The position numbers and the translations under genes are program-made. Of a stretch of 64,000 nucleotides of DNA, positions 3,601 through 17,699 are shown one piece after another. Every line of letters begins with the position of its first letter. Positions within the stretch are counted from its first letter, which is position 1. This DNA is from Pannonibacter phragmitetus DSM 14782 (GTDB lineage: Bacteria > Pseudomonadota > Alphaproteobacteria > Rhizobiales > Stappiaceae), in the NCBI RefSeq assembly GCF_000382365.1, contig NZ_KB908215.1:1-64000 (forward strand). The letters run 5' to 3'. The notes beneath the pieces are model-generated. The model was not told the DNA's origin and ran no database searches. It worked only from the letters and a program-made list of their open reading frames with translations.

Positions 3601-4806
<1,206 letters not shown>

Positions 4807-4937
4807 CATCATCTCCGGCGGGGCCACATTCCACCCCGCCGGGTATTCCTCTTCTTTCCGGCCATTCCTCATCAGTGGAAAAATTGCATCAAGGCGGATG
4901 CACATCCGCCAAACCCATGCTAAAAGCCGCGAAAGAT

Positions 4938-5013
4938 GCCGGTATAGCTCAGCAGGTAGAGCACCTGATTTGTAATCAGGGGGTCACGGGTTCGAACCCT
5001 GTTGCCGGCACCA
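4938..5013 (+). tRNA. tRNA-Thr (anticodon UGU), integration target
   Basis: This is a 76-nt cloverleaf with acceptor GCCGGTA, anticodon loop TTTGTAA (anticodon TGT), T-loop TTCGAAC and encoded CCA. Its 3' half, from 4967 onward, is duplicated at 14905. It is therefore the attachment site of the following element, which regenerates an intact tRNA on integration. Confidence 0.97.
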
Positions 5014-5023
5014 TATTTTTCAA
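4967..5023. repeat. Left attachment-site direct repeat of the tRNA-Thr element
   Basis: These 57 bases run from inside the tRNA-Thr anticodon stem, through the CCA, to CATATTTTTCAA. They are identical to 14905-14961. After one mismatch, six more bases (CACTTA) also match. This is the classic signature of site-specific integration into a tRNA 3' end. Confidence 0.95.
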
Positions 5024-5144
5024 GCACTTAGCGCCATTCCAACTCATACCCCGACAGCCAATATAAGCAATATATAAACACTGCGCGGCCTTTCCCTCTC
5101 CCTTCACGCTGATTCTCTCTTTTCTCTATTTCAATAAAGAAAGG

Positions 5145-5234
5145 CCGTCATCGTCGTCATGGCCGTCATTTCCGTTTGATTTCAAACGCTTAGTAATTGA
5201 CAGGCGTTGTCATCGGTCGTCATTCGGTCGTCAT
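5145..5234. repeat. GTCAT repeat array, candidate integrase arm-type sites (left)
   Basis: GTCAT occurs at 5147, 5156, 5165, 5209, 5219 and 5230, the first three at exact 9-bp spacing in the context GGCCGTCAT. The same units appear in inverted orientation (ATGAC, again at 9-bp spacing) near the other end at 14603-14688. Mirror-image short repeats flanking an element are typical of arm-type binding sites. Confidence 0.6.
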
Positions 5235-5358
5235 CGCGCCGCGCACAAAACAGCCCAGCGCCTCGCTCATGAGTTGCAACTTTAGCGCCGATGACAGAAT
5301 AAGCCGTTGGTTTCTTTAGAAGTTTAGGCTTTGTGTTTAGTGTGAGGCTGGCGGCGGC

Positions 5359-5405
5359 TCGGGGTCTTTCCGCCCGTGGGAGCCTCAGGGCTTTGTACGG
5401 TCCCT
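5359..5405. repeat. Duplicated block, copy 1
   Basis: TCGGGGTCTTTCCGCCCGTG begins at 5359, and after a 16-base divergent spacer TACGGTCCCT begins at 5396. The same two blocks with the same spacing recur at 11496-11542. Both copies lie downstream of a leftward gene (resolvase; XRE regulator). Confidence 0.75.
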
Positions 5406-5567
5406 AAGACCGGGGGGCCTTACTAAAGCCTCCTCCCCCTGCCGGTCAGCTGCGGCAGCGTGCTGCAATGAGTGGAAGGGGGCGCGGGAGAAGGGATGGA
5501 CGCAGAAAAGAAAACCCGCCCCAGGCAGGGACGGGAACAACGGGAAGTCAGCGCAGTGGGGCGACGA

Positions 5568-6110
5568 CTAGACGCCCAGCGCCCGGTAGACGCTGGCCCG
5601 GCCAATGCCAAGACGGGCGGCAATCTCAGTAGCGCCCACTCCTTCAGCAGCCAGTGCTTTGACAGCTTGTGCATCTACGGACGGCTTGCGCCCCTTGTAG
5701 ACGCCTGCGGCCTTAGCCTTGGCAATGCCTTCCATCTGCCGTTCCCGGCGAAGGCTTGTCTCGAACTCAGCGAACACACCCAGCATGTCAAAGAAGGCCT
5801 TGCCTGCTGCGGTGCTGGTGTCGATGGGCTGTTCAGTTGCCTTCAGCGCAACACCACGGGCCTTCAGCTGCTTGGCAATGTCCTGCAGGTCTGCGATGGA
5901 CCGGGCCAAGCGGTCAACACGGGTGACCATGAGCGTGTCCCCCGGCCTCAGGAAGGCAAGCAACGTGTCCAGTTCCTGCCGCCCTTCGCGGGAAGTACCG
6001 GACGCCTTCTCTTCCCGCACAATCTCACAGCCTGCCGCCCTCAGGGCCTCAACCTGAATGGTCAAGTCCTGATCCTGTGTGCTCACACGGGCATATCCAT
6101 AAACGGCCAT
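5568..6110 (-). CDS. Serine recombinase, resolvase/invertase family (TnpR/ParA-type resolvase)
   Basis: This small serine resolvase has 180 residues from the ATG at 6110. The N-terminal catalytic domain opens YGYARVSTQDQ with nucleophile Ser10 and Arg8. The Arg pair in TRVDRLARS and the long E helix (DMLGVFAEFETSLRRERQ) follow. The C-terminal helix-turn-helix is ATEIAARLGIGRASVYRAL. An upstream GTG at 6119 is in frame, but AGAGG sits at good distance from the ATG at 6110. The DNA immediately upstream contains res-like inverted repeats, so the likely job is resolving multimers of the excised, replicating element rather than integrating it. Invertase function is possible but no invertible segment is seen. 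Confidence 0.9.
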   Translation of the reverse strand: MAVYGYARVSTQDQDLTIQVEALRAAGCEIVREEKASGTSREGRQELDTLLAFLRPGDTLMVTRVDRLARSIADLQDIAKQLKARGVALKATEQPIDTSTAAGKAFFDMLGVFAEFETSLRRERQMEGIAKAKAAGVYKGRKPSVDAQAVKALAAEGVGATEIAARLGIGRASVYRALGV

Positions 6111-6122
6111 CCTGATCACCTC

Positions 6123-6240
6123 TGTCTCAATAGGGTCTAGACCATGGATGGATACCGTCTCATAATTTCCAAGTCAACCCTATTGAGGCAGCCCTAACGT
6201 CTCACAGTTCTGCCTCTCAGGGGTATACCCAACTGAGACA
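6123..6240. promoter_or_regulatory. Candidate res site with three resolvase-binding subsites
   Basis: Half-sites of the form TGTCTCA...GGGT and ACCC..TGAGACA recur three times. One starts with TGTCTCAATAGGGT at 6123 (putative subsite III). A 34-bp unit at 6157-6190 ends ACCCTATTGAGGCA (putative II). A 30-bp imperfect palindrome at 6211-6240 is centred on GGGTATACCC (putative I, with a TA core). The order III-II-I away from the resolvase gene and the 34-bp middle unit match the Tn3/gamma-delta res plan. The resolvase promoter should overlap, giving autoregulation. Confidence 0.7.
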
Positions 6241-6246
6241 TAGGCG

Positions 6247-8496
6247 TTACAGCCATGATATGAGAATCGTTCGGCTTCCCGCCGCCCGTCGCTTCTCAAC
6301 CGCTATGCCCTTGGCCCGCAGAAGCGGGGCGGCACGAGCCACGGCATCGCCCAGCGTATTCGGCTTGAGCGGCAGGAACTTTCCTCCCGTGGCATCTTCC
6401 GCGCCCAGCCGCGTCAGGGCAGCAAGCAAAGCCGTTGCCGTCCCCTCCCAACGCCCGGTCGGGTGTTCCTCCCGCATCAGGCGCTCAATCGCCACGGCCA
6501 CAGGGTCACCTTCAAAAACGGCTTCGGCCGTTTCTCGCCTGTTCGCTTCGTACGCGGCCATAAACTCGCCAGCCATCCAGCCCAAGCCCGGTTCCGCAGC
6601 CGCCATCAGCCGGGCGAAGTCTGCCATGCGCGGCGCACGTTCCAGCTTGGTTGCATCGTACCGCCGGACAGCCGCCGCGACCGCATCGAGCAACGCCCCG
6701 ATAATGCCAGGGCGCACGGCCTCCCACGCCGCCCAGAAATCATCTTCAGACTGCCGGGCGGTTTCATCAATCCTCAGAAGGCGCACAGTTAGCGACCGGT
6801 CCGCCATATCGGCCCGCCCGGTAAGCGAGGGTATACCGTTGACGAGTACCGGCCGCGATCCGGCAAACCAGAACGGTTCAGCATCGGAGTGCAGCTTACG
6901 CGTCAGAAAGCCACTGCCAGTGGACAGACGGCAGACGGAATCCGAAAACCAGTTCTCGACCTTGGAGAGGTTGTCAAAGGACAAAACGTGCGACGATATC
7001 GCCATCGTGAAGAGATCGCGCTCGTCTTTCGGCTGTGCCAGCCCGGAGACTGCCGAAGGGTCTACTAAGCCCCGCAGCAGACGCGCCATTGTCGATTTGC
7101 CGGAACCCTGTTCACCACCCAGGGCAAGCACCGGAAACGCACTGCCGCGCCCCCAGAGGGCCGCGACGAGCCAGGCAACGATTAGCCTGAAGTCACCGTC
7201 ATCAGCGTTGATGAAAACACGCAGTTCCTCAATCAAATGCCCGGCTTCCGGCTCCGGAAGGGCATGCATCGTTTCGCCCCGTAAAAATTTCACAGCAGGA
7301 CGGGCGACGACTTCCCAGCCACCCGCCGTGATCCGAACCGCCCGCCAGGCGTCGTCGCATAGGTCCAACCAACAGGCTTGCCCGTCCCATGCCGTGCGCA
7401 AAAACGTCTTGTGACAGGGGCCGTCCTCGATGGCCCGAACCTGAAGCACTCGCAGCGCGTCGGCCAGCATCTGCCCCGCAGGCGCGTTGCCGGTCGCGCG
7501 GTAGAACTGACCAGCTGCCCAGCGCGCAAACGCGGCACTATCGAGCCGCCAATGCTCCAAATGCCCGTTCACTGGCACCGTCGCGAACCCGACCTTCTCC
7601 GGCGAATGCCACAGGTCCGCTGCGTCCAGTGACGCAAGGAAGGCATCCCGCTTCGGCGGGTTCTTGCGTTCCCGGCGCTTGCCGCGCCCCCCTTGCTTCG
7701 CAGTGTCGGCAAGGCTGTCCGGGGCTGTCTCGGGAGCCGTCTCCGGCGCTGGGCGCATGGCTGCATCAACTGGCGCAAAATCATTCCCCGATGGCGCGGG
7801 CGCTACTTCTTTAGCGGCCCGGATGAGATCGAGAACTTTAGCCGGGTTCAACCCTTCTTCTTTAGCGTCTGCTGCGTCCCACCCCTTCGTTACGCCCTGT
7901 GGCGGCACGATCACACGAACCGAGATAGCCCCCGCCGCCAGGGCGAGCCGTGCCACTTCGTCGGCGTAGGCTTGGCCCGGCGCGTCGGCGTCCGGCCAGA
8001 TGACCACCGCCCGCCCAGCCAAGGGCGACCAGTCAGACTTCGCTGCCGCCTTGCCGCCGCCGCTAGATGTGGTGGCTACATGGTCCGGCAACAACGCTGC
8101 TGCCGCGTCTGCTGCCTTCTCACCTTCCGTCACGATGACGAGCGAAGCAGGGCGCTGGGCGAGCCGGTCAAGGCCGTATAGCGGCCGGTTTTCGGGGATT
8201 GCCGCCCAACGCCAGCCCTCGCGCCCAGATGCATTCCGGCACCATGTCAGGGGGAGGACATCCTTTCCGCCGTCCGGCTTTTCGAACCGGGCCACGAGGG
8301 CGAGAACCGCGCCCGCTGAATCGCGGTACGTCCAAACGGCGGACGGCCTGCCTTTCGTGGGGTGCTCCTTTGGCGGATTCGGCGCGCTGGGCGGCACAGG
8401 CAGCACCGGAAGCCAGGCAGGAACCGACGCCGGAGCCACAGGAGCCGGGGCCGGGCTGGCGCCGCCGGAGATCGGGGCGAAGGGGTCAATCGTCAT
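6247..8496 (-). CDS. Toprim/P-loop helicase protein (mobile-element primase-helicase)
   Basis: This is the replication protein of the element, about 750 residues. A proline-rich N-terminus leads to a domain with WTYRDSAGAVLALVARFEKPDG. A Toprim fold follows (VIVTEGEKAADAA, then VIWPDADAPGQAY), the metal-binding core of primases. The second half carries an SF3/D5-like ATPase with Walker A GGEQGSGKST, Walker B HVLSFDNL and SLTGRADMADRSLTVRL. Two ATGs (8502, 8496) are in frame; both lie inside the 3' end of the preceding gene, so translation is coupled. The predicted role is priming and unwinding at the element's origin. The zinc-binding part of a normal primase is absent here and may be supplied by the upstream genes. 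Confidence 0.85.
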   Translation of the reverse strand: MTIDPFAPISGGASPAPAPVAPASVPAWLPVLPVPPSAPNPPKEHPTKGRPSAVWTYRDSAGAVLALVARFEKPDGGKDVLPLTWCRNASGREGWRWAAIPENRPLYGLDRLAQRPASLVIVTEGEKAADAAAALLPDHVATTSSGGGKAAAKSDWSPLAGRAVVIWPDADAPGQAYADEVARLALAAGAISVRVIVPPQGVTKGWDAADAKEEGLNPAKVLDLIRAAKEVAPAPSGNDFAPVDAAMRPAPETAPETAPDSLADTAKQGGRGKRRERKNPPKRDAFLASLDAADLWHSPEKVGFATVPVNGHLEHWRLDSAAFARWAAGQFYRATGNAPAGQMLADALRVLQVRAIEDGPCHKTFLRTAWDGQACWLDLCDDAWRAVRITAGGWEVVARPAVKFLRGETMHALPEPEAGHLIEELRVFINADDGDFRLIVAWLVAALWGRGSAFPVLALGGEQGSGKSTMARLLRGLVDPSAVSGLAQPKDERDLFTMAISSHVLSFDNLSKVENWFSDSVCRLSTGSGFLTRKLHSDAEPFWFAGSRPVLVNGIPSLTGRADMADRSLTVRLLRIDETARQSEDDFWAAWEAVRPGIIGALLDAVAAAVRRYDATKLERAPRMADFARLMAAAEPGLGWMAGEFMAAYEANRRETAEAVFEGDPVAVAIERLMREEHPTGRWEGTATALLAALTRLGAEDATGGKFLPLKPNTLGDAVARAAPLLRAKGIAVEKRRAAGSRTILISWL

Positions 8497-8797
8497 AGGC
8501 ATTCACCCCCAGCATACCAGCCACCTTTTCCGCCGCTTCCGGCTGTTTCAGGTCGAAGAGGAACGCCGCGAGGGCGACAAGATCGCGCCCGCCATCACCT
8601 GTCGCAAAGTCGGCCCACTTTCCTGTCGTGAGGTTCACTTTCAACGAGCCGTGCCGCTTGTCGCCCCGTTTTGGGTTCCGGGCCACCCACTCGACGCCCT
8701 CGCGCCGTCCGTCCGGGAGCCATCGGCTAACAATTCCCGGCGCGGCAGCCAGCGCCGCGCTCGCCACCCGTTCGAAGTTGATGCGGCGGCGCCTCAT
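8486..8797 (-). CDS. Small primase-associated protein of the replication module
   Basis: This 103-residue protein is encoded between the 356-residue zinc-motif protein and the Toprim-helicase. It overlaps the former by four bases (ATGA) and the latter's start by about 11-17 bases. The stretch SLKVNLTTGKWADFATGDGGRDLVALAAFLF resembles the segment that follows the zinc finger in phage and plasmid primases (WxDFATGDxGGDLVxL). This looks like part of a primase split onto its own gene. The N-terminus is basic (MRRRRINFERV). That it acts in a complex with its two neighbours is inferred from coupling and motif content. Confidence 0.75.
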   Translation of the reverse strand: MRRRRINFERVASAALAAAPGIVSRWLPDGRREGVEWVARNPKRGDKRHGSLKVNLTTGKWADFATGDGGRDLVALAAFLFDLKQPEAAEKVAGMLGVNAYDD

Positions 8798-9864
8798 GCT
8801 TCGTCGCCTTCTCTGGCGAAAAATGCAGGCGCAGTAACTTCAGTGAGCCCCTGCGCAAGTCGTCCTCTTTCCTCGCCCGGAAGATCGAGGCCCAGAGCTG
8901 TCGTGAGGATTCTTTCCGCCCACCAGCCCCCCTCCACGCCGGAGACAAGGCCCAGGAGCGACAACACATCGCGCCCATGGGCCCGCACCCTGGCTCCGCC
9001 GAGATCGAACCGGCCAACCCAACGCCCGCCCCGCAGAACTGAAAACCGTACCCCCGCACGGGCATTGTTGTAGAAGAATGACCCTTCCGAAGATTCCCCA
9101 CGCGGAAACAGCGCCTCAAGCAGTTCGCGCATCAAAGGGTGCAATGCCGCGCCGGGCGGCGACTTCGACAAAGCCCAGAGGGCCTCAGGGCGCAAACCGG
9201 CCACCACAGGCAGCAGAGTCCCTGTGTGCAGGTCGAAGAAATCCCGCAAAGCCGCACGGCTCAAGCCCGAGACGCGGAAGCCCGTAAAAGCCTCCAGCAG
9301 CTCCGCCGCATAGAGGCCGCCGGAGCTGCCAGCGAGCGAAGCGAGCAGCCCCAGCAGCCCGCCACTATGCTGGAGAGAACGCCCGCCCGCTTCCTCCGCT
9401 GGCATCCAAAACCAGCTGCCGGGTGCTGAAATCTCGACGCGCCCCAAACCATCGCAGTTAAACTCAATCAGCTGGACGCGCCAGGGCGAGCGGCTGCACT
9501 TCCGCACGTCCAGCGCAACAGCAATTAGCGACCTCATGAGAGGCGCAAAATGCCGTTCCGCCGGATGCAACCGGGCAAGAAGATTCACCACTGAGAGCGG
9601 CGCAAAACTGCGTTGAGCGGCCTTGACAGAGGAAAATTCCGCGCCTTCACGCGGCATCAGCCGGTACTGACCGGGCCGCATTTTGATCGCGTAGGCGCTG
9701 CTGCACCCCGCCACGCGCCAGCCCTCCCCGGCCCCGTGGCGATGGCTGCTGCCGCACCACGGGCAAGGCGCAGTCACCAGCCCCTTGCCAACTTTCACGG
9801 CCTCAAGCTCAACGCCGGAGAAGCCCAGGAACCGGGCAAAGTCTTCAAACTCGGCAGCACTCAT
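8794..9864 (-). CDS. Hypothetical protein with N-terminal zinc-ribbon-like motif, replication module
   Basis: The protein has 356 residues. Residues 25-55 contain APCPWCGSSHRHGAGEGW followed by a Cys in AGCSS, arranged like a CHC2-type primase zinc finger. The remainder is mixed alpha/beta with several Trp and Gly clusters and no motif I can assign. It overlaps the upstream helix-turn-helix gene and the downstream 103-residue gene by ATGA in both cases, so the four genes are translated as one coupled unit. It may supply the DNA- or origin-recognition finger missing from the Toprim-helicase. The function is inferred from position and the Cys/His pattern only. Confidence 0.65.
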   Translation of the reverse strand: MSAAEFEDFARFLGFSGVELEAVKVGKGLVTAPCPWCGSSHRHGAGEGWRVAGCSSAYAIKMRPGQYRLMPREGAEFSSVKAAQRSFAPLSVVNLLARLHPAERHFAPLMRSLIAVALDVRKCSRSPWRVQLIEFNCDGLGRVEISAPGSWFWMPAEEAGGRSLQHSGGLLGLLASLAGSSGGLYAAELLEAFTGFRVSGLSRAALRDFFDLHTGTLLPVVAGLRPEALWALSKSPPGAALHPLMRELLEALFPRGESSEGSFFYNNARAGVRFSVLRGGRWVGRFDLGGARVRAHGRDVLSLLGLVSGVEGGWWAERILTTALGLDLPGEERGRLAQGLTEVTAPAFFAREGDEA

Positions 9865-10100
9865 GGCCGAACCTCCGTGCGCTGGGCATCGGCGGCGGAC
9901 GTCGATCCAAAAGTCTGCGAGGCGCAGAAATCAAGCAAATCGGCCCGGCGGTATCGGACCAGCCGGCCAACTTTCACGAACGCGGGGCCAGCACCGCGCA
10001 CCCGCCATGCCTGCAACGCCCGATGGCTTATCTTGAGAAAGTCAGCCGCCCCGCGCTCCGTCAGAAGAGCTTCAGGGTCAAATCGTTGTTCATGTTCCAT
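9861..10100 (-). CDS. Helix-turn-helix (AlpA/excisionase-like) DNA-binding protein
   Basis: This 79-residue protein is dominated by an HTH_17-type domain: LLTERGAADFLKISHRALQAWR, then VKVGRLVRYRRADLLDFC. The layout is typical of excisionase and AlpA proteins, in which a MerR-like helix pair is followed by a wing that checks the binding site. It is the first gene of the coupled replication operon and overlaps the next gene by four bases. In mobile elements such proteins direct excision or activate the integrase or replication promoter. Which applies here cannot be told, but the integrase gene is far away at the right end and an action in trans is plausible. Confidence 0.82.
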   Translation of the reverse strand: MEHEQRFDPEALLTERGAADFLKISHRALQAWRVRGAGPAFVKVGRLVRYRRADLLDFCASQTFGSTSAADAQRTEVRP

Positions 10101-10184
10101 GGACCTTCATCCCGATCTAGGCCAACCGCACAATTGCGACGGCGCGCGATGAAGGTGCGGGCACGGCATTCATTCCGCACCCCT

Positions 10185-10232
10185 TTTAGTCCATGAAAGC
10201 CGCACACACTTTTAAAGGCGGGCCGGACTAAA
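10185..10232. promoter_or_regulatory. Inverted repeat TTTAGTCC/GGACTAAA between HTH gene and unknown gene
   Basis: Eight-base arms at 10185-10192 and 10225-10232 are separated by 32 bases; the right arm overlaps the stop codon of the 10228-11370 gene. It could be a terminator stem for that gene or an operator for the replication operon, whose promoter must lie just upstream of 10100. Confidence 0.4.
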
Positions 10233-11364
10233 GAACCGGAGCCAGCTGCTCTTTTAAAAGGTTGCGCATCCAATAAAATATGGGATCATCATAAGATAAT
10301 GAAGTATCACCGGGATTATTTTTCTCGCTCTCGCCCAATTCATAATTAAATCCATCAAAATGACCAGCAACCTCCCCTATCAAATGCTTAACGTCAGAAT
10401 GACCATTTGACGTTCCCGGTTTTTGTCTCTCTGGAAATTCAAGAGCGACATCCCAATCCCCCCAAAAAACCCGCTCCGCCGTAAGTAAAAAATCATGAAA
10501 TCCTCCATGGTATGTTTCGGTTGGCTTCTCACCTGTCAAAAAGTAATAAATACCGCCTGCAAAGCCAGCAAAAGCCCTGCGCCTGACGGCGGAAGGCCGT
10601 CCCTTCGCATTTATAAGCGATTTCCATTCGACAGAACTTCGCAAAAGAACGCCCGAAAAATCCTTTATTTTACTTATTTTATTAAGGTCAAAAGCGCCGT
10701 ATATTCCACCCTCAACAATTCCATGCATGTATCTATTTGAGCCCTCTGCGCCATATCTTCTCTGATCATCAGCCACCTCACTAATTCCACTACGCAAGAA
10801 CAAATTATGTAATATCTCAAAACTATCTGAAGCTTTTTCAGTTAAGTTGATAATTTCTTCAAGTACAGATGAAATTATCTTTGGGTCCATCCGCCTGCAA
10901 TCTCTGTAAATTTCATCAACAGAAGATCCACACGCAAATAACGCCCACCTACTCCACCAATATGGACAATCAACACCAAGGGAAAGCAGGCGCGACCGCA
11001 AGCCTTCTCCGCCTTTTGCCAGAAGTTGCTCTAACCAATCATCAAGACCAATTTCCGAAGCGGGGCCGCAAGGCTTTACATACGGCTTCCAAGCGTCAGG
11101 CATTGGAAAATAATAATATTGGTCCTCAGCGCTATATTCGGGACCATATCCATTGAATGGAATGGCATTCCCATATAGACGCTTCCATAGATGATAAGAC
11201 CTAAACTCTTCAGAGTACTGAACTTCAGGCGTTTTTCTAGTTTCTGGACAAAAAACATAGGCATCTTTTTTACCAGAGTTCCACGCATCCAACCTCCGCC
11301 TTACCGCTTCTTCACATGCATAACTGCTGAAATCGCGTTTAAGCCTTTCAAACAACTGAGCCAT
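10228..11364 (-). CDS. Protein of unknown function, AT-rich cargo-like gene
   Basis: The protein has about 378 residues (MAQLFERLKRDFSSYACEEAV start at 11364; an in-frame ATG two codons upstream is also possible). I recognise no domain. It is rich in aromatic residues, including PYWWSRWALFACGSS and YYYFPMPDAW. The C-terminal half has GFAGGIYYFLTGEKPTETYHGGFHDFLL and ends in an acidic-polar tail. There is no signal peptide or membrane segment. The gene is much richer in A and T than its neighbours and uses AT-ending codons that surrounding genes avoid, a sign of separate origin. It sits between the replication operon and the iterons, where satellites and islands often keep accessory cargo such as defence genes; a defence role is speculation. 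Confidence 0.75.
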   Translation of the reverse strand: MAQLFERLKRDFSSYACEEAVRRRLDAWNSGKKDAYVFCPETRKTPEVQYSEEFRSYHLWKRLYGNAIPFNGYGPEYSAEDQYYYFPMPDAWKPYVKPCGPASEIGLDDWLEQLLAKGGEGLRSRLLSLGVDCPYWWSRWALFACGSSVDEIYRDCRRMDPKIISSVLEEIINLTEKASDSFEILHNLFLRSGISEVADDQRRYGAEGSNRYMHGIVEGGIYGAFDLNKISKIKDFSGVLLRSSVEWKSLINAKGRPSAVRRRAFAGFAGGIYYFLTGEKPTETYHGGFHDFLLTAERVFWGDWDVALEFPERQKPGTSNGHSDVKHLIGEVAGHFDGFNYELGESEKNNPGDTSLSYDDPIFYWMRNLLKEQLAPVL

Positions 11365-11410
11365 AATCAAACCTTCTCACAAATCAGGAAGAACGGGCGC
11401 AGGGCACCAG

Positions 11411-11464
11411 GTCAACCCCGTCAACCGTCAACCGGTGGCGTCAACCCCGTCAACCGCGTCAACC
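11411..11464. repeat. Six GTCAACC iteron-like direct repeats, candidate origin
   Basis: GTCAACC starts at 11411, 11420, 11427, 11440, 11449 and 11458, giving spacings of 9, 7, 13, 9 and 9. All are in the same orientation within 54 bases. Short tandem spaced repeats beside replication genes and a repressor gene are typical of iteron origins, or of operator arrays bound by a replication or regulatory protein. Confidence 0.7.
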
Positions 11465-11495
11465 CAACATTTCAGGCGGGGTGTCTGGCCCTTTT

Positions 11496-11542
11496 TCGGG
11501 GTCTTTCCGCCCGTGGCGCGGCTTTGCGGTCATACGGTCCCT
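11496..11542. repeat. Duplicated block, copy 2
   Basis: This is the second copy of the block at 5359-5405: a 21-base identical part starting at 11496 and TACGGTCCCT starting at 11533, with the same 16-base divergent spacing. It lies between the iterons and the 3' end of the XRE gene. Confidence 0.75.
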
Positions 11543-11578
11543 GAAAGGGGTGGGGGCTGGCGTCGGCAGGGCAGACCA

Positions 11579-11827
11579 TCACCCCTCGACCGCATCCCGC
11601 CGCAGCCGCACCCCAACACCTCCGGCTGCATCGGCTGCTAGGAACTCGACCCCGGCGGCTTCAAGGGCGCGCCTCACGGCTTCGACATTGGCAGCCGTGC
11701 TCCGCCCCGGCCCAACATTCTCCATTCGCTTGATCGTCGGCAGAGACAGGGCCGTCAGCTCAGCGAGCCCGGCTTGGGACAGACCAAGCAAAGCCCGCGC
11801 TGCGCGCATCTGCGCTTCATTGAACAT
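11579..11827 (-). CDS. XRE-family transcriptional regulator
   Basis: This 82-residue protein is essentially one Cro/C1-type helix-turn-helix: MRAARALLGLSQAGLAELTALSLPTIKRMEN, followed by NVEAVRRALEAAGVEFL. This short XRE type with a GVEF ending is common in rhizobial prophages and islands. It is transcribed away from the small gene at 11921; the 93-bp gap between them contains a 10-bp palindrome and a promoter-like sequence. A repressor of the divergent gene set and of itself is the likely role, keeping the element quiet. Length and motif are complete. Confidence 0.9.
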   Translation of the reverse strand: MFNEAQMRAARALLGLSQAGLAELTALSLPTIKRMENVGPGRSTAANVEAVRRALEAAGVEFLAADAAGGVGVRLRRDAVEG

Positions 11828-11843
11828 TTTTAATCCCTTTTAT

Positions 11844-11892
11844 ATCATATGATCTTTTTAGATTGACGCAAAAAGCGCCAAATGATACTAAA
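11844..11892. promoter_or_regulatory. Divergent promoter/operator region of the XRE gene
   Basis: The perfect palindrome ATCATATGAT is at 11844-11853. A sigma70-like TTGACG at 11863 is spaced 17 bases from TACTAA at 11886 and would drive the rightward genes. The palindrome is a candidate XRE-binding site. The -10 match is poor. Confidence 0.45.
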
Positions 11893-11920
11893 TAGATAAC
11901 ACATTCAAGAGGCTTTCGCC

Positions 11921-12268
11921 ATGACTTTCAACCGCTCTGAACTCTTCCGCGCTGCATGGGCAGACGCCCGCGAAGTTCACGCAAATTTCAAGCGTAACGC
12001 CCGAGTCTTCGGCCCTGCGCCGTCCTTGCAGTCCTGCTTCAGCAAGGCTCTGCGGGAGGCATGGGCGACAGCCAAGGCCGCAGCCGCCAAGGCCAAGGCC
12101 AAGCAGGCAGCACGGGCAGCCGTTGCGGCCCTGCCAGCCGCAGAGCGGGCACGCCTTGCCGCCGCCGCACAGGACGCCTTGGCCCGGCTCGTTTTTTCAG
12201 ACGCGCCCATGGCAGCGATCGCCAGCCGCCGCGCTGCCCTCAACGCCCAGCTTGCTGCCTTCAACTGA
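11921..12268 (+). CDS. Small alanine/lysine-rich hypothetical protein
   Basis: The protein has 115 residues. The N-terminus (MTFNRSELFRAAWADAREVHANFKRN) resembles the start of many small rhizobial phage and island proteins that begin F-R-AW. The middle is a low-complexity helix of Ala, Lys and Arg (AAAKAKAKQAARAAVAAL), probably a basic coiled helix that could contact nucleic acid. It follows AAGAGG at a good distance and opens a rightward run of four small genes (11921-13223). Function unknown. Nothing suggests it is broken. Confidence 0.65.
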   Translation: MTFNRSELFRAAWADAREVHANFKRNARVFGPAPSLQSCFSKALREAWATAKAAAAKAKAKQAARAAVAALPAAERARLAAAAQDALARLVFSDAPMAAIASRRAALNAQLAAFN

Positions 12269-12283
12269 ACGGAGATCGACCCC

Positions 12284-12718
12284 ATGCAGATGCTAAACAC
12301 TTGCCCGGTGACGGCCCTTGGCCTTGAAGCAGCAAACCTGAGCGCCCTTTACGATAGACTTGATGAGGCCGGACAGCTCGCCCGGCCAGAGGCCCGCGAC
12401 GGGGCAGCCGGGCTACTCGACGCGATTACCGCAATCGAAAACCTTGCCTCTCACCGCATCCCGCAAAGCTTCGCGGGGGCCTATTTCAAGGTTCTGCTGA
12501 TCGTCGCGGACCTGAACGACCTGACCAACTGGCCGGACAGAACCGGCCCAGAGCGGGCGGAGCTTGACCGCCGCCTGAAGCGAAACATCCGCCACTTGCT
12601 CGACTTCCTCAGGCCCCATGCCGGGCCAGAAGTCGCCCTTTTCGACCGCGACGAAGAGCACATCCAGCGCCACTCACAGAACCCCGACGAGCTGCGGCAG
12701 CTTCTCGCTTCGCAATAA
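12284..12718 (+). CDS. Hypothetical protein of the element
   Basis: This 144-residue, mostly helical, acidic and soluble protein matches no family I recognise. It contains LYDRLDEAGQLARPEARDGAAGLLDAI and an IRHLLDFLRPHAG segment. It starts 16 bases after the preceding gene and ends 12 bases before the next, so the small genes form one transcription unit. The good codon use and tight packing support it as real. Confidence 0.65.
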   Translation: MQMLNTCPVTALGLEAANLSALYDRLDEAGQLARPEARDGAAGLLDAITAIENLASHRIPQSFAGAYFKVLLIVADLNDLTNWPDRTGPERAELDRRLKRNIRHLLDFLRPHAGPEVALFDRDEEHIQRHSQNPDELRQLLASQ

Positions 12719-12729
12719 AGGATCGCGCC

Positions 12730-12891
12730 ATGACACAGCATAAAGACCAGCTCTCAGAACTGATCGCCGTTTATCGTGCGGGGATCGAAGACACGATTGA
12801 AATTCTCATCACGCTGCTTGACCGGCTCGACGGTGACAGCGATTTTGAGGTTGAGCCGGAAGAGGACAGCGGCATCTTCTGCGACCTCTGA
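12730..12891 (+). CDS. Very small acidic hypothetical protein (53 residues)
   Basis: The frame reads from the ATG at 12730 (MTQHKDQLSELIAVYRAGIE) to TGA at 12889-12891. The first two-thirds is one amphipathic helix (IAVYRAGIEDTIEILITLLDRL) and the end is strongly acidic (FEVEPEEDSG). It sits 11 bases after the preceding stop with AAAGGATCG just upstream. Small acidic helices in mobile elements are often antitoxins or anti-repressors, but nothing specific supports either. Position and spacing make it likely to be translated. Confidence 0.55.
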   Translation: MTQHKDQLSELIAVYRAGIEDTIEILITLLDRLDGDSDFEVEPEEDSGIFCDL

Positions 12892-12941
12892 AACGTCGAA
12901 GCTGACGCCATGGGTAGTGCCAGGGCAAACGGGGAACTCAG

Positions 12942-13223
12942 ATGATACGTTACGTCGCCTTTTTACATCAGGACGAGGGCCCCGGCTACGGCATCTCATT
13001 CCCGGATTTTCCCGGCTGCATCAGCGCGGGCGATACGCTTGACGAGGCCATTCAAATGGGCACCGAAGCGCTGGGCTTCCATACCGAAGTCATGCGTGAA
13101 TACGGCGAAGTGATTCCGGCTCCCCGTGACCTTGACGCCATTCTGGCAGACGAGAGCCTTGCCGAATGGCGCGAAGGCGCGACCTTTACCCATGTGCCCC
13201 TCATCATGGACAAGGGCGCGTAA
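12942..13223 (+). CDS. HicB-family protein (orphan antitoxin-like)
   Basis: The protein has 93 residues with the HicB RNase-H-like fold signature: YVAFLHQDEGPGYGISFPDFPGCISAGDTLDEAIQMGTEAL, then IPAPRDLDAIL. In toxin-antitoxin pairs HicB neutralises the mRNA interferase HicA, whose gene (about 60-80 codons) normally lies directly next to it. Here the gap to the preceding gene is only 50 bases, and the 53-residue neighbour has none of the HicA GSH or double-stranded-RNA-binding features. HicB therefore appears alone and may act as a regulator or guard against other HicA toxins. There is no C-terminal DNA-binding domain. Confidence 0.85.
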   Translation: MIRYVAFLHQDEGPGYGISFPDFPGCISAGDTLDEAIQMGTEALGFHTEVMREYGEVIPAPRDLDAILADESLAEWREGATFTHVPLIMDKGA

Positions 13224-13261
13224 CGCGCCTAGCGCTCCCCCCCCCACCACCTGAAGGCCTG

Positions 13262-14578
13262 CTATCCCTGTTCCGGCTCCCGTCTTGGGCGCCGGTTCCT
13301 TTTTGCGGCAGCCAGTTCAATGACCTCAGCCGGCGCTTTTTCCCCCTTCAATCCGGCCTCGATCCGCGCCCCAACTGCATCCGAAAGAACCCGGATAGGG
13401 TCCGCATCGGGGCTTACGTATCTGTTGGTCATTGTCAGGTTGGAATGCCGCAGAAGGTGGGAGATCAGGAACGCATTGCTTCCCGCTTGTCCGGCGAAAG
13501 TTCCGACCGTATGCCGCAGGTCATGCAGGCGCACATCCTCAAGCCCGGCGTGAGCGCGGATGCGCTGCCACGCGTTTTCGACCACCTCTTTCGAAACATG
13601 GCGCTTAGGGTCGGCATCACGGGGCAGCACCCACTGCCCGCGCCGGGGCAGCCCGGCCAAGACAGCCAAGGCACCAGCGCCAACCGGATGCGCCCGCCGC
13701 CCGCCACCCTTGCGAGCTGGGAAAGCCACTGTCCCGGCTTCCGCGTCAACGTGGTTCCATTTCAGCTCAAGCACCTCTGACAACCTCGCGCCCGTCAGCA
13801 AGAGTAACCGGATAGCCGCGATGCCGGGAGCGCTCACGGCGGCACGCCGGGCGTCGGTGCCCTTGGCAAGATGCTTCAGCGCGGCGCCTTCGGCTTTGAC
13901 CTTCCAGGGCAAACCCTTGGCTTCCGCCTCATCCAGCGCCGCCCCCAGCCGCGCCAGCTCATTCATGTTCAGAAAACGCTCACGTTGGGTTTCAGCGTAG
14001 CGCTTGACCAGCCGTGTCGGGTTAGAGTTTTCGGGACGGATGCCCCAAGTTTCCGCCAAATTGAATGCCTTGGACAGGATCGCGAGGGCAAGGTTCGCCT
14101 GTCGCGGCGTGTCCGCCAAGGCCCGGTGCAGCTTGACCACATCCGCACGGCCAAAGCTTGTCAGTTTGATCTTGCCGACTCGGGGCTTCAGAACCTTCTC
14201 GACCACCCGCGTTGCGTGAACGAGCGTGGTAGCAGCGTTGTGCACCTCGACATGCTCGGCGAGGTACTTGTCCAGCAAGTCGGCAACGGTTTCCGCCGCC
14301 CGCAGTGCCTGCCGCTCTGCCGCCGGATCACGGCCCATCCGGACCTCACCCAGCTTTGCAGCCGCCAGCTTGCGCGCCTGATCGGGCGCAAGCTCACCGT
14401 GGCGGCCTATCACCATACGCCGCGTCCGTCCCGCCTCTGTCCGGTAGGCCAAAACATAGGATTTCACCCCCGCCGGGGTTATCTGCAAGCCAAAGCCTTT
14501 GAGGGCGTCATCCCACAGAAAGCTAAGCTTTTCCTGAGGCTTGGCGGCATCAACGACACGTTTCGTTAGGTTCGGCAT
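13262..14578 (-). CDS. int: Tyrosine recombinase/integrase of the tRNA-Thr element
   Basis: This 438-residue phage/island-type integrase has an N-terminal DUF4102-like arm-binding domain (LTKRVVDAAKP, then FGLQITPAGVKSYVLAYR), a SAM-like core-binding domain (about 95-205) and a catalytic domain. The catalytic set is R265 (TGARLSEVLELKW), a Lys near 290, H352 and R355 (HDLRHT), H378 (LLRHSN) and nucleophile Y387 (NRYVS), all present. It integrates and excises the element by recombining the tRNA-Thr 3' end. The gene reads inward from the right attachment site, 326 bp away, with the ATGAC arm-like repeats in the gap. An intact active site suggests a functional enzyme. Confidence 0.95.
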   Translation of the reverse strand: MPNLTKRVVDAAKPQEKLSFLWDDALKGFGLQITPAGVKSYVLAYRTEAGRTRRMVIGRHGELAPDQARKLAAAKLGEVRMGRDPAAERQALRAAETVADLLDKYLAEHVEVHNAATTLVHATRVVEKVLKPRVGKIKLTSFGRADVVKLHRALADTPRQANLALAILSKAFNLAETWGIRPENSNPTRLVKRYAETQRERFLNMNELARLGAALDEAEAKGLPWKVKAEGAALKHLAKGTDARRAAVSAPGIAAIRLLLLTGARLSEVLELKWNHVDAEAGTVAFPARKGGGRRAHPVGAGALAVLAGLPRRGQWVLPRDADPKRHVSKEVVENAWQRIRAHAGLEDVRLHDLRHTVGTFAGQAGSNAFLISHLLRHSNLTMTNRYVSPDADPIRVLSDAVGARIEAGLKGEKAPAEVIELAAAKRNRRPRREPEQG

Positions 14579-14602
14579 CTCAGTTCCCGGCCTTCCTGCC
14601 CC

Positions 14603-14690
14603 ATGACGGCCATGACAACCCCTGTAAAAACAGTGACGACCTTAAGCCATTGTAAAACAACAATAATGACGACCATGACGGCAATGACGA
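14603..14690. repeat. ATGAC repeat array, candidate integrase arm-type sites (right)
   Basis: ATGAC starts at 14603, 14612, 14666, 14675 and 14684, at 9-bp spacing within each cluster. These are inverted relative to the GTCAT array at the left end (5145-5234). They lie between the integrase start and attR and may also overlap the integrase promoter. Confidence 0.6.
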
Positions 14691-14904
14691 TCTTTCCCAT
14701 ATACTACACATGCTCTAAGTCGCACGTCGCGCTGAGCCATGCCGCCAGGCAGAACACCCCGCCCACTGCTTCCGCGCCATATAAGCACCATATAAGCAGA
14801 TGGTGTCAAATTGCATCGCACGGCATCGCAAGCCACTCATACTAACTATTTGATTTTTCGTAATTCGTCGCAGTTGAACGCATTAAGTGATACATAAGAA
14901 ATGA

Positions 14905-14961
14905 GATTTGTAATCAGGGGGTCACGGGTTCGAACCCTGTTGCCGGCACCATATTTTTCAA
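14905..14961. repeat. Right attachment-site direct repeat (tRNA-Thr 3' fragment)
   Basis: This is an exact copy of 4967-5023 that starts within the anticodon arm, so it is not a functional tRNA. It marks the right boundary of the integrated element. Confidence 0.95.
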
Positions 14962-15021
14962 TCACTTAAGCCAAAACAGACCAGAACACAGCGGGAACAT
15001 ATGCGACCTGTGCGACCAGAA

Positions 15022-15041
15022 AAAGTCGCACGTGCGACTTT
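15022..15041. repeat. 20-bp perfect palindrome outside attR
   Basis: AAAGTCGCACGTGCGACTTT is perfectly self-complementary and is preceded by two more TGCGAC units (15002, 15011). It lies 60 bp beyond the right attachment site and upstream of the small membrane-protein gene. It may be an operator, or a trace of an older recombination site. Confidence 0.55.
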
Positions 15042-15156
15042 ATGTTCCTGAGCCGTTCATGCAGAAGGCTTAGTGCGTCACTTCCAAAGCTGAGCGGTTG
15101 GCTCTGAACAACGCAGAATTGACAGTCTCCTGCATGAGTGCACACTGAGGCACCTC

Positions 15157-15516
15157 ATGCGGAAAGATGAAGCTATGGCCGATGATCAGGTTCCAGGGAA
15201 CGTCATTCATTACGCAAAGCAGCTTATGGAAATAAGGTCAAAACCAAGAAAGCAGTGGGAACAGCAAAAAACCTTCTGCATAATTGCTGCTGCTGCGTTT
15301 TTGCTCAGCCTATTCTTTCCAAACTACAAAGATCAAACGCATCCGGAATTCATCAAAGGCGCGGCATTGGCGGTGCTCATGATTACTGGGTATTTTTGGT
15401 ATGTATGGAAAGGAGAAGAAGACAGGAAGGCAGAAAAAATACTTAGTATCGAAGAAATAATCAAAGAAAAAGGCTACAAGGTTGACATGTTCACAGGCTA
15501 TATTTCAAAACTATGA
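15157..15516 (+). CDS. Small membrane protein, unknown function
   Basis: The protein has 119 residues (113 if the ATG at 15175 is used; both have usable ribosome-binding sites). A charged N-terminus is followed by two predicted membrane helices: FCIIAAAAFLLSLFF and FIKGAALAVLMITGYFWYVW. A lysine/glutamate-rich cytoplasmic tail contains a repeated-looking KILSIEEIIKEKGYKV. I recognise no family. The DNA is visibly AT-richer than the chromosome core and lies just outside the right attachment repeat, suggesting it came with an earlier insertion at the same tRNA. It is convergent with the next small gene. Confidence 0.6.
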   Translation: MRKDEAMADDQVPGNVIHYAKQLMEIRSKPRKQWEQQKTFCIIAAAAFLLSLFFPNYKDQTHPEFIKGAALAVLMITGYFWYVWKGEEDRKAEKILSIEEIIKEKGYKVDMFTGYISKL

Positions 15517-15520
15517 TCAG

Positions 15521-15808
15521 TCAACAGACAGGCTCAAGACGGTCAACTCGCCTGCCATCGAACTGATCGAAGATGTTAGGCGCCCTCTTTGATTTTAGAC
15601 TTTTATCTTGAAACTGATTTTCTGGCTCAATTTCCATGAGCGAACACACATCAACAAGGCAATGCATTGTTTTTCCTGTCCACCTGTCATGAACATATAA
15701 GCCCCAATTACCTGAGACTATATAATCATACCGGAAGAACTGAAATAACAGGGCTCCACTCAGCCATAGTGACACCAGAATGAGCGAAAGCAGAATCTTG
15801 GTCGCCAT
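15521..15808 (-). CDS. Small single-pass membrane or secreted hypothetical protein
   Basis: The protein has 95 residues. An N-terminal hydrophobic segment (ILLSLILVSLWLSGALLFQFF) would be a membrane anchor or uncleaved signal. The rest, about 70 residues, is hydrophilic and lies outside the membrane, with two Cys in MHCLVDVCSLMEIEP. It is convergent with the 15157 gene, with four bases between the stops. No family is recognised. The AT-rich base use matches its partner and differs from flanking chromosomal genes. Confidence 0.5.
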   Translation of the reverse strand: MATKILLSLILVSLWLSGALLFQFFRYDYIVSGNWGLYVHDRWTGKTMHCLVDVCSLMEIEPENQFQDKSLKSKRAPNIFDQFDGRRVDRLEPVC

Positions 15809-15886
15809 GCTACAGCCTTTTGCCTGAAATCAATGTCGCTGCACGGAGCAGGAAGAACGTCCCCAACTAGGTTCCCTCTTCTCTTT

Positions 15887-15963
15887 CGTCATGGTCGGGC
15901 TTGTCCCGACCATCTACAAACTATTGACTTTTATAGATCCTCGGCACAAGGCCGAGGATGACG
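15887..15963. repeat. RIME-like intergenic repeat with two hairpins
   Basis: The element is bounded by CGTCAT and ATGACG. It contains stem ATGGTCGGG/CCCGACCAT (15891-15913) and stem ATCCTCGGC/GCCGAGGAT (15937-15959). This double-hairpin form is a familiar kind of rhizobial intergenic mosaic repeat. A 61-codon open frame across it is an artefact of the repeat. Confidence 0.7.
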
Positions 15964-16060
15964 ACGGTGAGGCCGAAGGTTTGTCAGCAATCAGCAATAT
16001 GACGGCAGCTCCCGGGGAGTGGGAGCTGCCGCTTCGCACGCGGACTGGTCGATGGGGAAC

Positions 16061-17080
16061 TCAGCCGTTGCGGTAGGTGTAGCTGTAGCCGTTGATGGCC
16101 GGGGCGCCGCCAAGGTGGGCGTAGAGAACCTTGGAACCGGCGGGAATCTTGCCCTTGCGGATGAGGTCGATCATGCCCTGCATGGACTTGCCCTCATAGA
16201 CCGGGTCGGTGATCATCGCTTCCGTGCGGGCGGCCATACGGATGGCTTCGTTGGTCTCTGCGCTCGGCACGCCATAGGCCGGATAGGCGTAGTCCTCAAC
16301 GATGACGATTTCGTCCTCGCGCACCGGTCGGCCCAGTTCCACCAGATCAGCGGTACGGTCGACGATCTCGCGCACCTGGGAGCGGGTCTGCTCCGGCGTG
16401 CCGGAGGCATCGATGCCGATCACCCGGTCGGCGCGGCCATCGGCAGCGAAGCCGACGATCATGCCGGCCTGGGTGGAGCCGGTGACGACGCAGACGATGA
16501 TATAGTCGAAGCGGATGCCCATTTCGGCTTCCTGTGCCCGCACTTCCTCGGCAAAGCGCACATAACCAAGGCCGCCATAGGGGTGGACGGAGGCACCGGC
16601 CGGAATGCCGTAGGGCTTGCCGCCGGCGTCCTTGACGGACTGCAGCGCGTCTTCCCAGCTCTTGCGGATGCCGATGTCGAAGCCGTCATCGACGATGCGG
16701 CTGTCTGCGCCCATCAGGCGGGTGAGAAGAATGTTGCCGACGCGGTCATAGACGGCATCTTCATGCGGCACCCAGCTTTCCTGCACCACCACGCACTTGA
16801 GGCCGAGCTTGGCAGCGGTTGCCGCGACCATGCGGGTGTGATTCGACTGCACGCCGCCGATGGACACGAGCGTATCTGCCCCCGAGGCCAGAACGTCCGG
16901 CACGATATATTCCAGCTTGCGCAGCTTGTTGCCGCCGAAGGCAAGGCCGGAGTTGCAGTCGTCACGCTTGGCGTAGATCTCCACGGCACCGCCCAGCTCC
17001 GCCGACAGGCGGTCCAGCTTTTCGATCGGGGTCGGGCCGAAGGTCAGGGGGTAACGTTCGAATTTGTCCAGTTTCAGCAT
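16061..17080 (-). CDS. acdS: 1-aminocyclopropane-1-carboxylate (ACC) deaminase
   Basis: This 339-residue PLP enzyme of the tryptophan-synthase-beta fold converts ACC, the plant ethylene precursor, to 2-oxobutyrate and ammonia. The PLP lysine is K52 ([11 protein letters not shown]), followed by [13 protein letters not shown]. The residues that separate ACC deaminase from D-cysteine desulfhydrase are both of the deaminase type: E296 in DPVYEGKS and L323 in YAHLGGAPA (desulfhydrases have Thr at both). The ATG at 17080 matches the family start [22 protein letters not shown]. An Lrp-type regulator is divergent, the usual acdR-acdS layout. This suggests plant or algal association, or use of ACC as a nitrogen source. 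Confidence 0.95.
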
Positions 17081-17138
17081 TGCCTGCTCCACTCTTGAAA
17101 GGTGGCGGAACGCTAGCAGGAAGGATATGAAAGGTGCT

Positions 17139-17173
17139 TGCAATCTTTGGCCTTCAATGATCGCTTGATTGCA
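17139..17173. promoter_or_regulatory. Inverted repeat in the acdS-acdR intergenic region, candidate AcdR operator
   Basis: TGCAATC (17139-17145) and GATTGCA (17167-17173) form a 7-bp inverted repeat with a 21-bp spacer. It lies between the divergent starts at 17080 and 17220. Lrp-type regulators bind such spaced repeats. Direct regulation by the adjacent gene product is inferred. Confidence 0.55.
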
Positions 17174-17219
17174 GATATAGAGCTTTCAGATAACGATTAT
17201 TCCGGATTTTATCTCTTCA

Positions 17220-17699
17220 ATGAAAGAGTCTTTCACCCCTGAATCCCTCGACCGGATCGACCGCAAGATCCTGCATCTGCTGCAGCAGGACGGGCGCATG
17301 TCGAACGCGGATATTGCCGCAGCGGTCAATGTCAGTCCGGCCACCTGCCACCGGCGCATCCGGCGGCTGTTTGACGAGGGATATGTGCGGGACGTGCGGG
17401 CGGTGATCGATCCGCAGAAGGTCAGCCGGGGCGCGCTGGTCATGGTTGGGGTAGAGCTGGACCGCTCGACGCCGGAGAGTTTTGCCGCCTTCGAGGAGGC
17501 CATCCGCAAGCTGCCTGTCGTGCTCGACTGCCACCTGGTGGCGGGGGACTTCGATTTCTTCCTGAAGATCCGCGTCCGCGACATGGCCGATTTCAACCGC
17601 CTGCATGCGGAGCAGCTGATCGCCCTGCCCGGCGTGCGGCAGACCCGGACCTTCTTTGTCATCAAGGAAGTGGTCGACAATGCCCGGCTTGATTTTTGA
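17220..17699 (+). CDS. acdR: Lrp/AsnC-family regulator, probable activator of acdS
   Basis: This 159-residue protein has the standard two-domain Lrp layout. The N-terminal winged helix is LDRIDRKILHLLQQDGRMSNADIAAAVNVSPATCHRRIRRL; the C-terminal AsnC/RAM domain has LPVVLDCHLVAGDFDFFLKIRVRDM and LPGVRQTRTFFVIKEVV. It is divergently transcribed from acdS with 139 bp between starts, as described for acdR, where the protein senses ACC or leucine and activates acdS. The family and neighbour make the assignment likely; the effector is not visible in sequence. Confidence 0.9.
   Translation: MKESFTPESLDRIDRKILHLLQQDGRMSNADIAAAVNVSPATCHRRIRRLFDEGYVRDVRAVIDPQKVSRGALVMVGVELDRSTPESFAAFEEAIRKLPVVLDCHLVAGDFDFFLKIRVRDMADFNRLHAEQLIALPGVRQTRTFFVIKEVVDNARLDF

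Follow-up and report, generated by a model that had tools for sequence, protein, structure and literature searches.

P4-like satellites and classical phage-inducible chromosomal islands (PICIs) carry an integrase, an AlpA-type regulator and a primase/helicase. The phage-inducible chromosomal minimalist islands (PICMIs) of Vibrionaceae are described as requiring int, alpA and prim; most have a variable gene next to int, and many have another located between alpA and prim. They contain no capsid-remodelling or identifiable packaging genes, are packaged as concatemers, average 6.7 kb and have integration next to fis as their hallmark (PMC10803314). Integrative and mobilizable elements (IMEs) with only an origin of transfer (oriT) are also on record, according to the consulted part of another source (PMC11389934). 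Here we analyse a 64-kb window (positions 1-64,000 of contig NZ_KB908215.1) from Pannonibacter phragmitetus DSM 14782 (Stappiaceae; genome G000), where an element of 9.9 kb, taken to contain 11 genes, occupies a tRNA-Thr(UGU) gene (Table 1). We argue that this element is probably integrative, replication-competent and non-self-transmissible.

Integration into tRNA-Thr(UGU)

The 3' end of the tRNA gene is perfectly repeated over 57 bp (64 bp at 98%) with a spacing of 9,938, as the first-pass annotation had described. The element thus shows the anatomy of tRNA-targeting islands, with a restored tRNA, a displaced fragment at the ends and a tyrosine integrase inside. This integrase (P0011) contains the R-K-HxxR-H-Y motifs, which we take to be the full catalytic set that had been annotated. 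Inside both ends there are copies of the word GTCGTCAT, which occurs seven times in the window against a mean of 1.7 in 100 shuffles of the window sequence, none of which reached seven. The left ends of this element and of its relatives in genomes G009 and G010 contain three, five and five exact copies, respectively, and the right ends one, two and two inverted copies. The words are placed as arm-type integrase sites are, and would be candidate binding sites for P0011. No RNA besides the tRNA was detected at gathering score in an Rfam scan of positions 4500-16500.

Comparison of five Pannonibacter genomes revealed a clean empty site in the nearest congener by flanks (G008, 95.0-96.2% identity), in which the tRNA gene and 92 bp are followed by the right flank from window position 16002. 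G007 also contains the tRNA without an element, but its flanks are rearranged and it does not provide a clean empty site. Elements of about 12.8 and 11.1 kb occupy the same tRNA-Thr in G009 and G010, with exact repeats of 36 and 47 bp, and elements of 16.2 and 17.5 kb are found in tRNA-Thr(TGT) of two genomes from another Stappiaceae genus (G013 and G014). The latter two maintain the order of tRNA, P0002 (hereafter, the helicase), P0003 and alpA seen in the window, with an integrase of 58% identity. A search for the gene set in other tRNA-Thr loci, as the first-pass annotation had suggested, was therefore successful in four genomes, giving five related elements in the same target; no second copy was found in the DSM 14782 genome.

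The integrase and helicase genes of G000 and G010 are 88.7% and 86.6% identical, more than two flanking chromosomal stretches (77.3% and 82.6%); identity rises to 95% in a short stretch by the tRNA-Gly/Tyr genes nearby. The ratio of nonsynonymous to synonymous substitutions (dN/dS), obtained with our own Nei-Gojobori script for the G000 element against those of G009 and G010, was 0.05-0.08 for the integrase, helicase and P0003 genes (dS 0.44-0.83); these genes are under strong purifying selection. Conversely, dS was higher or saturated for P0004, alpA and P0006 (0.95 for alpA against G009 and otherwise 1.4 to 2.5, with P0006 saturated). G009 and G010 are 94.3% and 90.9% identical to each other in the integrase and helicase genes, and their P0004 and P0006 genes do not match in DNA. 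The regulatory middle is thus swapped or fast-evolving, whereas both ends are shared. The G009 element also encodes a BRO-N protein with a weak BstA match (L025:6568-7371).

To the right of attR, a low-GC stretch of 1.04 kb (14962-16001) is missing from the G008 empty site and begins like the left inner end of the element. Its first 915 bp, and its open reading frame (ORF) of 119 aa, have no match in the others of the 87 family genomes. The resemblance to the left inner end would be in keeping with a remnant left by a previous insertion. Positions 15877-15992 contain a dispersed repeat (about 115 bp), of which the DSM 14782 genome has many copies and each of the four congeners compared has copies as well.

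Replication and resolution module

Genes P0005 to P0002 form a coupled operon, as annotated, with stop/start overlaps at all three junctions (9861/9864, 8794/8797 and 8486/8502). Residues E126, D171, D173 and the P-loop K469 of P0002 are invariant. In a structure search, its TOPRIM part resembled the fold of T7 gp4 and DnaG primases (E 3.8e-6 and weaker); the predicted structure is good for this part (residues about 30-235), fair for the last 90 residues and poor for the helicase part. Matches of the C-terminal part to D5-like folds were weak (E 0.02 and worse), and its putative helicase label derives from family hints and the P-loop. Together, the separate P0003 and the primase-like fold at the N-terminus of P0002 support a split primase.

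The iteron-like repeats proposed in the first-pass annotation are six GTCAACC words at 11411-11464, between the XRE and P0006 genes. The window contains 14 such words against a shuffle mean of 6.3, a number reached by one of 100 shuffles. The surrounding 69 bp are identical in G000, G009 and G010 despite the divergence of P0006 (55% and 26% identity) and of P0004. Other 7-mers are repeated four or five times within 90 bp in 4 of 18 loci scanned (L065, L021, L022 and L067). A further pair of motifs, GGGGTCTTTCCGCCCGTGG followed by CGGTCCCT, occurs twice in the element, at 5359-5407 beyond the resolvase gene and at 11496-11540 beside the iterons, and is partly kept in G009 and G010.

The serine resolvase contains the resolvase motif ARVST and is 71% identical to that of the Methylobacterium plasmid pM44602. 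Tn3-type resolvases act at a three-part res site, and the sequence ahead of the gene resembles such a site, in keeping with the annotated res-like region. The palindrome GGGTATACCC at 6221-6230 has a single copy in the 64-kb window and was not produced by any of 100 shuffles, and 4 of the 18 TGAGAC/GTCTCA words of the window fall in 6120-6260. The same palindrome precedes the pM44602 resolvase gene, also as the single copy on that plasmid. The element thus has the resolvase and res-like site of an integrative plasmid, which would serve for multimer resolution. G009 (L025:4770-5411) and G010 (L026:12640-13269) contain in the same place a different resolvase, 38% identical to that of the window, so the gene has probably been exchanged.

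Proteins of the element were compared with Pfam (all 11), PHROGs (10, without P0010), NCBIfam (10, without P0001) and PADLOC (10, without P0011). In agreement with the reported lack of visible transfer or capsid genes, no capsid, relaxase, type IV secretion or coupling-protein family was recognised with Pfam, PHROGs and NCBIfam, the sole packaging hint being a weak AlpA match to a terminase small-subunit profile (PHROGs, E 0.046). PADLOC recognised no defence gene, returning only weak regulator and TOPRIM-type matches. P0004 and P0006 had no match in any of the four databases, and the predicted model of P0006 is poor (mean predicted local distance difference test score, pLDDT, of 51). Assignment of P0008 to AcrIIA3 was rejected (20.5 bits against a cut-off of 70). 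No HicA was recognised beside the HicB-like P0010, whose gene is preceded by a plus-strand frame of 53 codons at 12730-12891.

Table 1. Features of the tRNA-Thr element of P. phragmitetus DSM 14782 (window positions; HTH, helix-turn-helix)
Feature	Position	Strand	Evidence
tRNA-Thr(UGU), target gene, restored by the left end	4938..5013	+	ARAGORN; Rfam RF00005, 71 bits; intact copy at the G008 empty site
attL, 57-bp core repeat	4967..5023	+	Direct-repeat comparison
Arm-type repeat cluster (GTCGTCAT) inside the left end	5146..5234	+	Exact words at 5153, 5216 and 5227
Serine resolvase, 183 aa, GTG start	5568..6119	-	PF00239, 1.6e-41; HTH_7
Res-like site upstream of resolvase	6120..6246	-	Palindrome GGGTATACCC; TGAGAC/GTCTCA words
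P0002, TOPRIM primase and helicase-like protein, 751 aa	6247..8502	-	PHROG primase matches; PRK07078 far under cut-off (118.6 of 1014 bits)
P0003, separate N-terminal primase part, 103 aa	8486..8797	-	Weak match to PRK07078 positions 18-113 (5.6e-6); 70% identical on pM44602
P0004, CxxC-HxH-C protein, 356 aa, not found in most relatives	8794..9864	-	C34, C37, H41, H43 and C54 invariant in four sequences
P0005, AlpA/excisionase-like HTH protein, 79 aa	9861..10100	-	HTH_17, 1.8e-8; phrog_66 excisionase and regulator, 2.2e-5
P0006, fast-diverging protein in the slot before alpA	10228..11370	-	Relatives at 55% (G009), 26% (G010) and 22% (G064)
Iteron block, six GTCAACC at spacings 9, 7, 13, 9, 9; candidate origin or control region	11404..11472	+	Word count; identical 69-bp run in G009 and G010
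P0007, XRE-type regulator	11579..11827	-	HTH_31 and HTH_3, both under gathering score
P0008, small protein kept in three Pannonibacter elements	11921..12268	+	81-82% identity
P0009, small protein kept in three Pannonibacter elements	12284..12718	+	82.5-84.6% identity
P0010, HicB-like antitoxin	12942..13223	+	PF15919, 4.1e-19
P0011, tyrosine integrase, 438 aa	13262..14578	-	PF00589 (Phage_integrase), 1.3e-22; PF13356 (Arm-DNA-bind_3), 6e-16
Right-end arm-type repeats, inverted relative to the left	14603..14690	-	One exact GTCGTCAT on the minus strand at 14666; 17-bp inverted match 5153-5169 / 14603-14619
attR, displaced tRNA 3' end	14905..14961	+	Direct-repeat comparison

Relatives on chromosomes, plasmids and beside phage genes

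The first-pass annotation had suspected a type not commonly described in alphaproteobacteria; in Stappiaceae the element is not rare. Counting the DSM 14782 genome, the helicase was matched in 26 of 87 family genomes at E <= 0.001 and in 16 at E <= 1e-150, some of them in two pieces; across the order, matches at E <= 1e-60 came from 24 of 397 genomes. P0003 was matched in 17 of 385 genomes of the class at E <= 1e-15. A peptide-pattern scan of genome contigs with P0002 had its sole match in Pannonibacter sp. SL95 (helicase, 94%). Five of the family loci (G060, G053, G047, G059 and G064) contain int followed by alpA, P0003 and helicase on one strand, and the element in the window has more genes between int and alpA than these. 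In a helicase tree, the Stappiaceae form a clade of 16 rows (100/100), with a seventeenth, G064, outside it on a long branch.

Parts of the module are found on plasmids. Among 72,556 plasmid records, P0002 matched 48, one of them with a coverage of at least 80%, and P0003 matched nine, four covering 80%. The circular pM44602 (20,019 bp) encodes relatives of XRE (48%), AlpA (46%), P0003 (70%) and helicase (44%), a weak relative of P0004 (28%) and the resolvase, with no integrase match. The circular pMNOD05 (Methylobacterium, 20.3 kb) contains genes for XRE, an HTH protein, P0003, a TOPRIM stretch within a DUF927 protein and a recombinase, and pMbul3, whose record is marked linear, those for the helicase half, XRE and a resolvase of 68% identity. 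The helicase half is also encoded by a contig of 10,353 bp with a 26-bp terminal overlap (G355); no terminal overlap was found in the 18,490-bp contig of G413. The tree places pM44602 with G413 and pMNOD05 (100/98), and pMbul3 with the G355 contig (98/96), both groups apart from the Stappiaceae clade; the placement of pMNOD05, which fills 32% of the columns, is unsure, as is that of the long branches L083 and G343. The Methylobacterium plasmids thus share with the element the order XRE, ORF, HTH/alpA, P0003 and TOPRIM, with the P0004 relative before P0003 in pM44602, which also has the resolvase and the res palindrome. Unlike the element, pM44602 and pMNOD05 are free circles lacking an integrase match and the GTCAACC cluster; pM44602 encodes an AAA ATPase whose KGGSGKST motif suggests a ParA-like protein, and a DUF927 protein replaces the helicase half in pMNOD05. 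The prediction of an integrative element with a plasmid-like module is supported by these free circles together with the empty site and the four further genomes with the same tRNA target.

In a search of 50,697 phage records, P0002 matched 25, none with 80% coverage, and P0003 matched 18, two of them covering 80%. From the IMG/VR alignment query with P0002, first examined over at most 600 stretches, 80 of 543 loci were kept, nearly all of which match the N-terminal part only; two reach the helicase part, one of them probably the chromosomal locus of G016. A peptide-pattern scan of IMG/VR with P0002 gave no match. Locus L083, an element or prophage, encodes an integrase, P0003 (60%) and a full-length relative of the helicase (40%), as in our element, from which it differs by the portal, protease/capsid, TerS and TerL genes that follow; its stretch ends at TerL, so tail genes are possible beyond. 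This layout is like that of capsid-forming PICIs (cfPICIs). In G278 (L066:280-19121), a tRNA-Met repeat of 51 bp flanks an element of 18.8 kb that contains relatives of the helicase half and P0003 and a lone tail tape-measure gene (15692-17410; phrog_34270, 1.6e-41), and the other nine of its ten scanned ORFs match no structural family at E 0.001. A record filed as Pseudomonas phage vB_Pae_U10 (L162; PP003922.1, 10,183 bp) likewise looks like a satellite: besides int and a single capsid gene, it encodes two regulators of excisionase type and has two genes for primases.

Defence genes accompany several relatives: type I restriction-modification in G013, MkoA and MkoB in G014, a type IV/DUF262-like gene in G012, type I methylase and specificity genes next to the G047 core, type IIG and PtuA on pM44602, and HEC-06 on pMNOD05.

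Like PICMIs, the element combines co-located int, alpA and primase genes with variable genes in the int-alpA interval and optional ones in the alpA-primase interval; no capsid or packaging genes were recognised in it, and defence genes occur in its relatives. It differs in lying in tRNA-Thr(UGU) and not next to fis, in size (9.9 kb against the PICMI average), in having TOPRIM fused with a helicase-like part and P0003 as a separate protein, and in its resolvase and res-like site, iterons and XRE. P4-like satellites and PICIs are alike to it in the integrase, AlpA-type regulator and primase/helicase; no sid, psu, delta, terS, ppi or capsid gene, as in these and in cfPICIs, was recognised. General scans recognised no relaxase or conjugation gene, in contrast to IMEs and integrative and conjugative elements. 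It therefore falls outside the PICMIs because of its site, and outside the P4-like, PICI, cfPICI and IME groups because such genes were not recognised.

Islands, two prophages and one plasmid are listed for P. phragmitetus 31801 in the consulted part of its report (PMC5727363). In the portions used of the literature, including PMC10872708, PMC5727363 and PMC3281065 (on Polymorphum gilvum) but not supplementary island tables, we found no Stappiaceae element of comparable kind.

Mode of life

Anatomy, attachment repeats, the empty site, relatives in the same tRNA, selection on core genes, the res-like site, conserved iterons and plasmid-borne module parts support the reading of an integrative, replication-competent element. 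Its firmest points are the insertion in tRNA-Thr and the conservation of sites for replication and resolution. We infer the remainder of its cycle. The integrase would join the att site of a circular form to the 3' end of tRNA-Thr, with the element's own copy restoring the tRNA. XRE would hold the element silent; once relieved, AlpA would turn the integrase to excision and drive the coupled operon. P0003 and the P0002 N-terminus would then act as a split DnaG-type primase and P0002 would unwind DNA, with the iteron block as a putative origin or its control site. The resolvase would convert multimers to monomers at res, and the circle would reintegrate. Movement in trans is most likely, and spread between cells would probably rely on phage particles, as in PICMIs. 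By analogy, the element may work most like a PICMI with an added plasmid maintenance kit.

Several observations weigh against this reading. Helicase, P0003 and alpA are found beside tRNA-Thr in G023a and G012, where no integrase or repeat was found, and the other fetched Stappiaceae loci showed no tRNA, save tRNA-Arg near G033 and tRNA-Lys near G023b, and no matching repeat. Hence, related genomes with the same genes but no attachment repeats, which the first-pass annotation had considered adverse, exist in part. The resolvase is present in only 4 of 10 Stappiaceae loci that contain both the helicase and a P0011-like integrase (G000, G009, G010 and G059). Outside the three Pannonibacter elements, none of the fetched loci showed the GTCAACC cluster, and no Rep-initiator family was recognised in the element proteins (Pfam, PHROGs and NCBIfam). 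As to the plasmids, P0006 and P0004 were unmatched among the 72,556 records at E 0.01; the match of P0004 to pM44602 (1.8e-8) appeared only in a one-record comparison, and the pM44602 ORF in the place of P0006 is a counterpart by position, without sequence support. Finally, window positions 5024-13000 have no DNA match in the 50,697 phage records.

This last result also argues against a dedicated satellite whose induction would depend on a helper phage and whose replicated DNA would be packaged in the particles of that phage, with the resolvase processing concatemers or protecting the free circle. We regard this as possible, but as distinctly less probable than the reading above. It is favoured by the PICMI-like core, which in the consulted part of the PICMI report likewise comes without capsid or packaging genes (PMC10803314), by L083, by the tape-measure gene of the G278 element and by the defence genes in or beside several relatives. 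Conversely, no terminase, capsid-remodelling gene or packaging signal was identified in the element (no search was aimed at the last), the helicase part was reached in only 2 of the 80 viral loci, and the plasmid relatives show that the module can exist apart from phage structural genes. The phage satellite or helper-dependent island proposed in the first-pass annotation is thus plausible from the gene set and L083, with circle formation, a helper and packaging as predicted parts of its cycle.

Mobilization by a conjugative plasmid, with a foreign relaxase reading a putative oriT of the element, appears improbable. The element is integrative with no recognised conjugation genes, which would agree with the oriT-only IMEs in the part consulted of PMC11389934; however, no relaxase family was matched with Pfam, PHROGs or NCBIfam, and PLSDB types pM44602, pMbul3 and pMNOD05 as non-mobilizable. 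We give slightly less credence still to an island that has decayed or been domesticated and has lost its mobility. Decay does occur, as seen in the G023a and G012 cores and in the stops within the G016 helicase gene, and the extra 1.04 kb beyond attR is a further point in its favour. In the window, however, all core frames are intact, the core genes are under the selection described above, the repeats are perfect, the nearest congener has an empty site, and the regulatory segment differs sharply between elements with alike ends.

Beyond the integrative, non-self-transmissible element that we favour, we tentatively propose that one module (P0003, TOPRIM/helicase and AlpA, often with XRE and resolvase) is common, in alphaproteobacteria, to free circular plasmids, capsid-free integrated islands and capsid/terminase neighbourhoods. 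The Pannonibacter element might then be a true hybrid, a satellite also kept as a resolved, iteron-controlled plasmid between helper infections, in which the swappable XRE-P0006-AlpA-P0004 segment would set the immunity or incompatibility type.

It has long been asked how small tRNA islands move when they have no transfer genes, and, according to the review PMC11389934, the mobility of many islands has gone unexplained for decades. This family offers one tRNA site with several elements of a single replication lineage, together with an empty site in a near relative and plasmid relatives, which makes excision, circular replication and helper dependence directly testable. The finding bears on the spread of anti-phage defence genes in alphaproteobacteria and also on the origins of phage satellites, since plasmids, capsid-free islands and a capsid-gene neighbourhood share one helicase lineage. 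With related replication genes both on free plasmids and beside virus-coat genes, the element may link plasmids with phage satellites.

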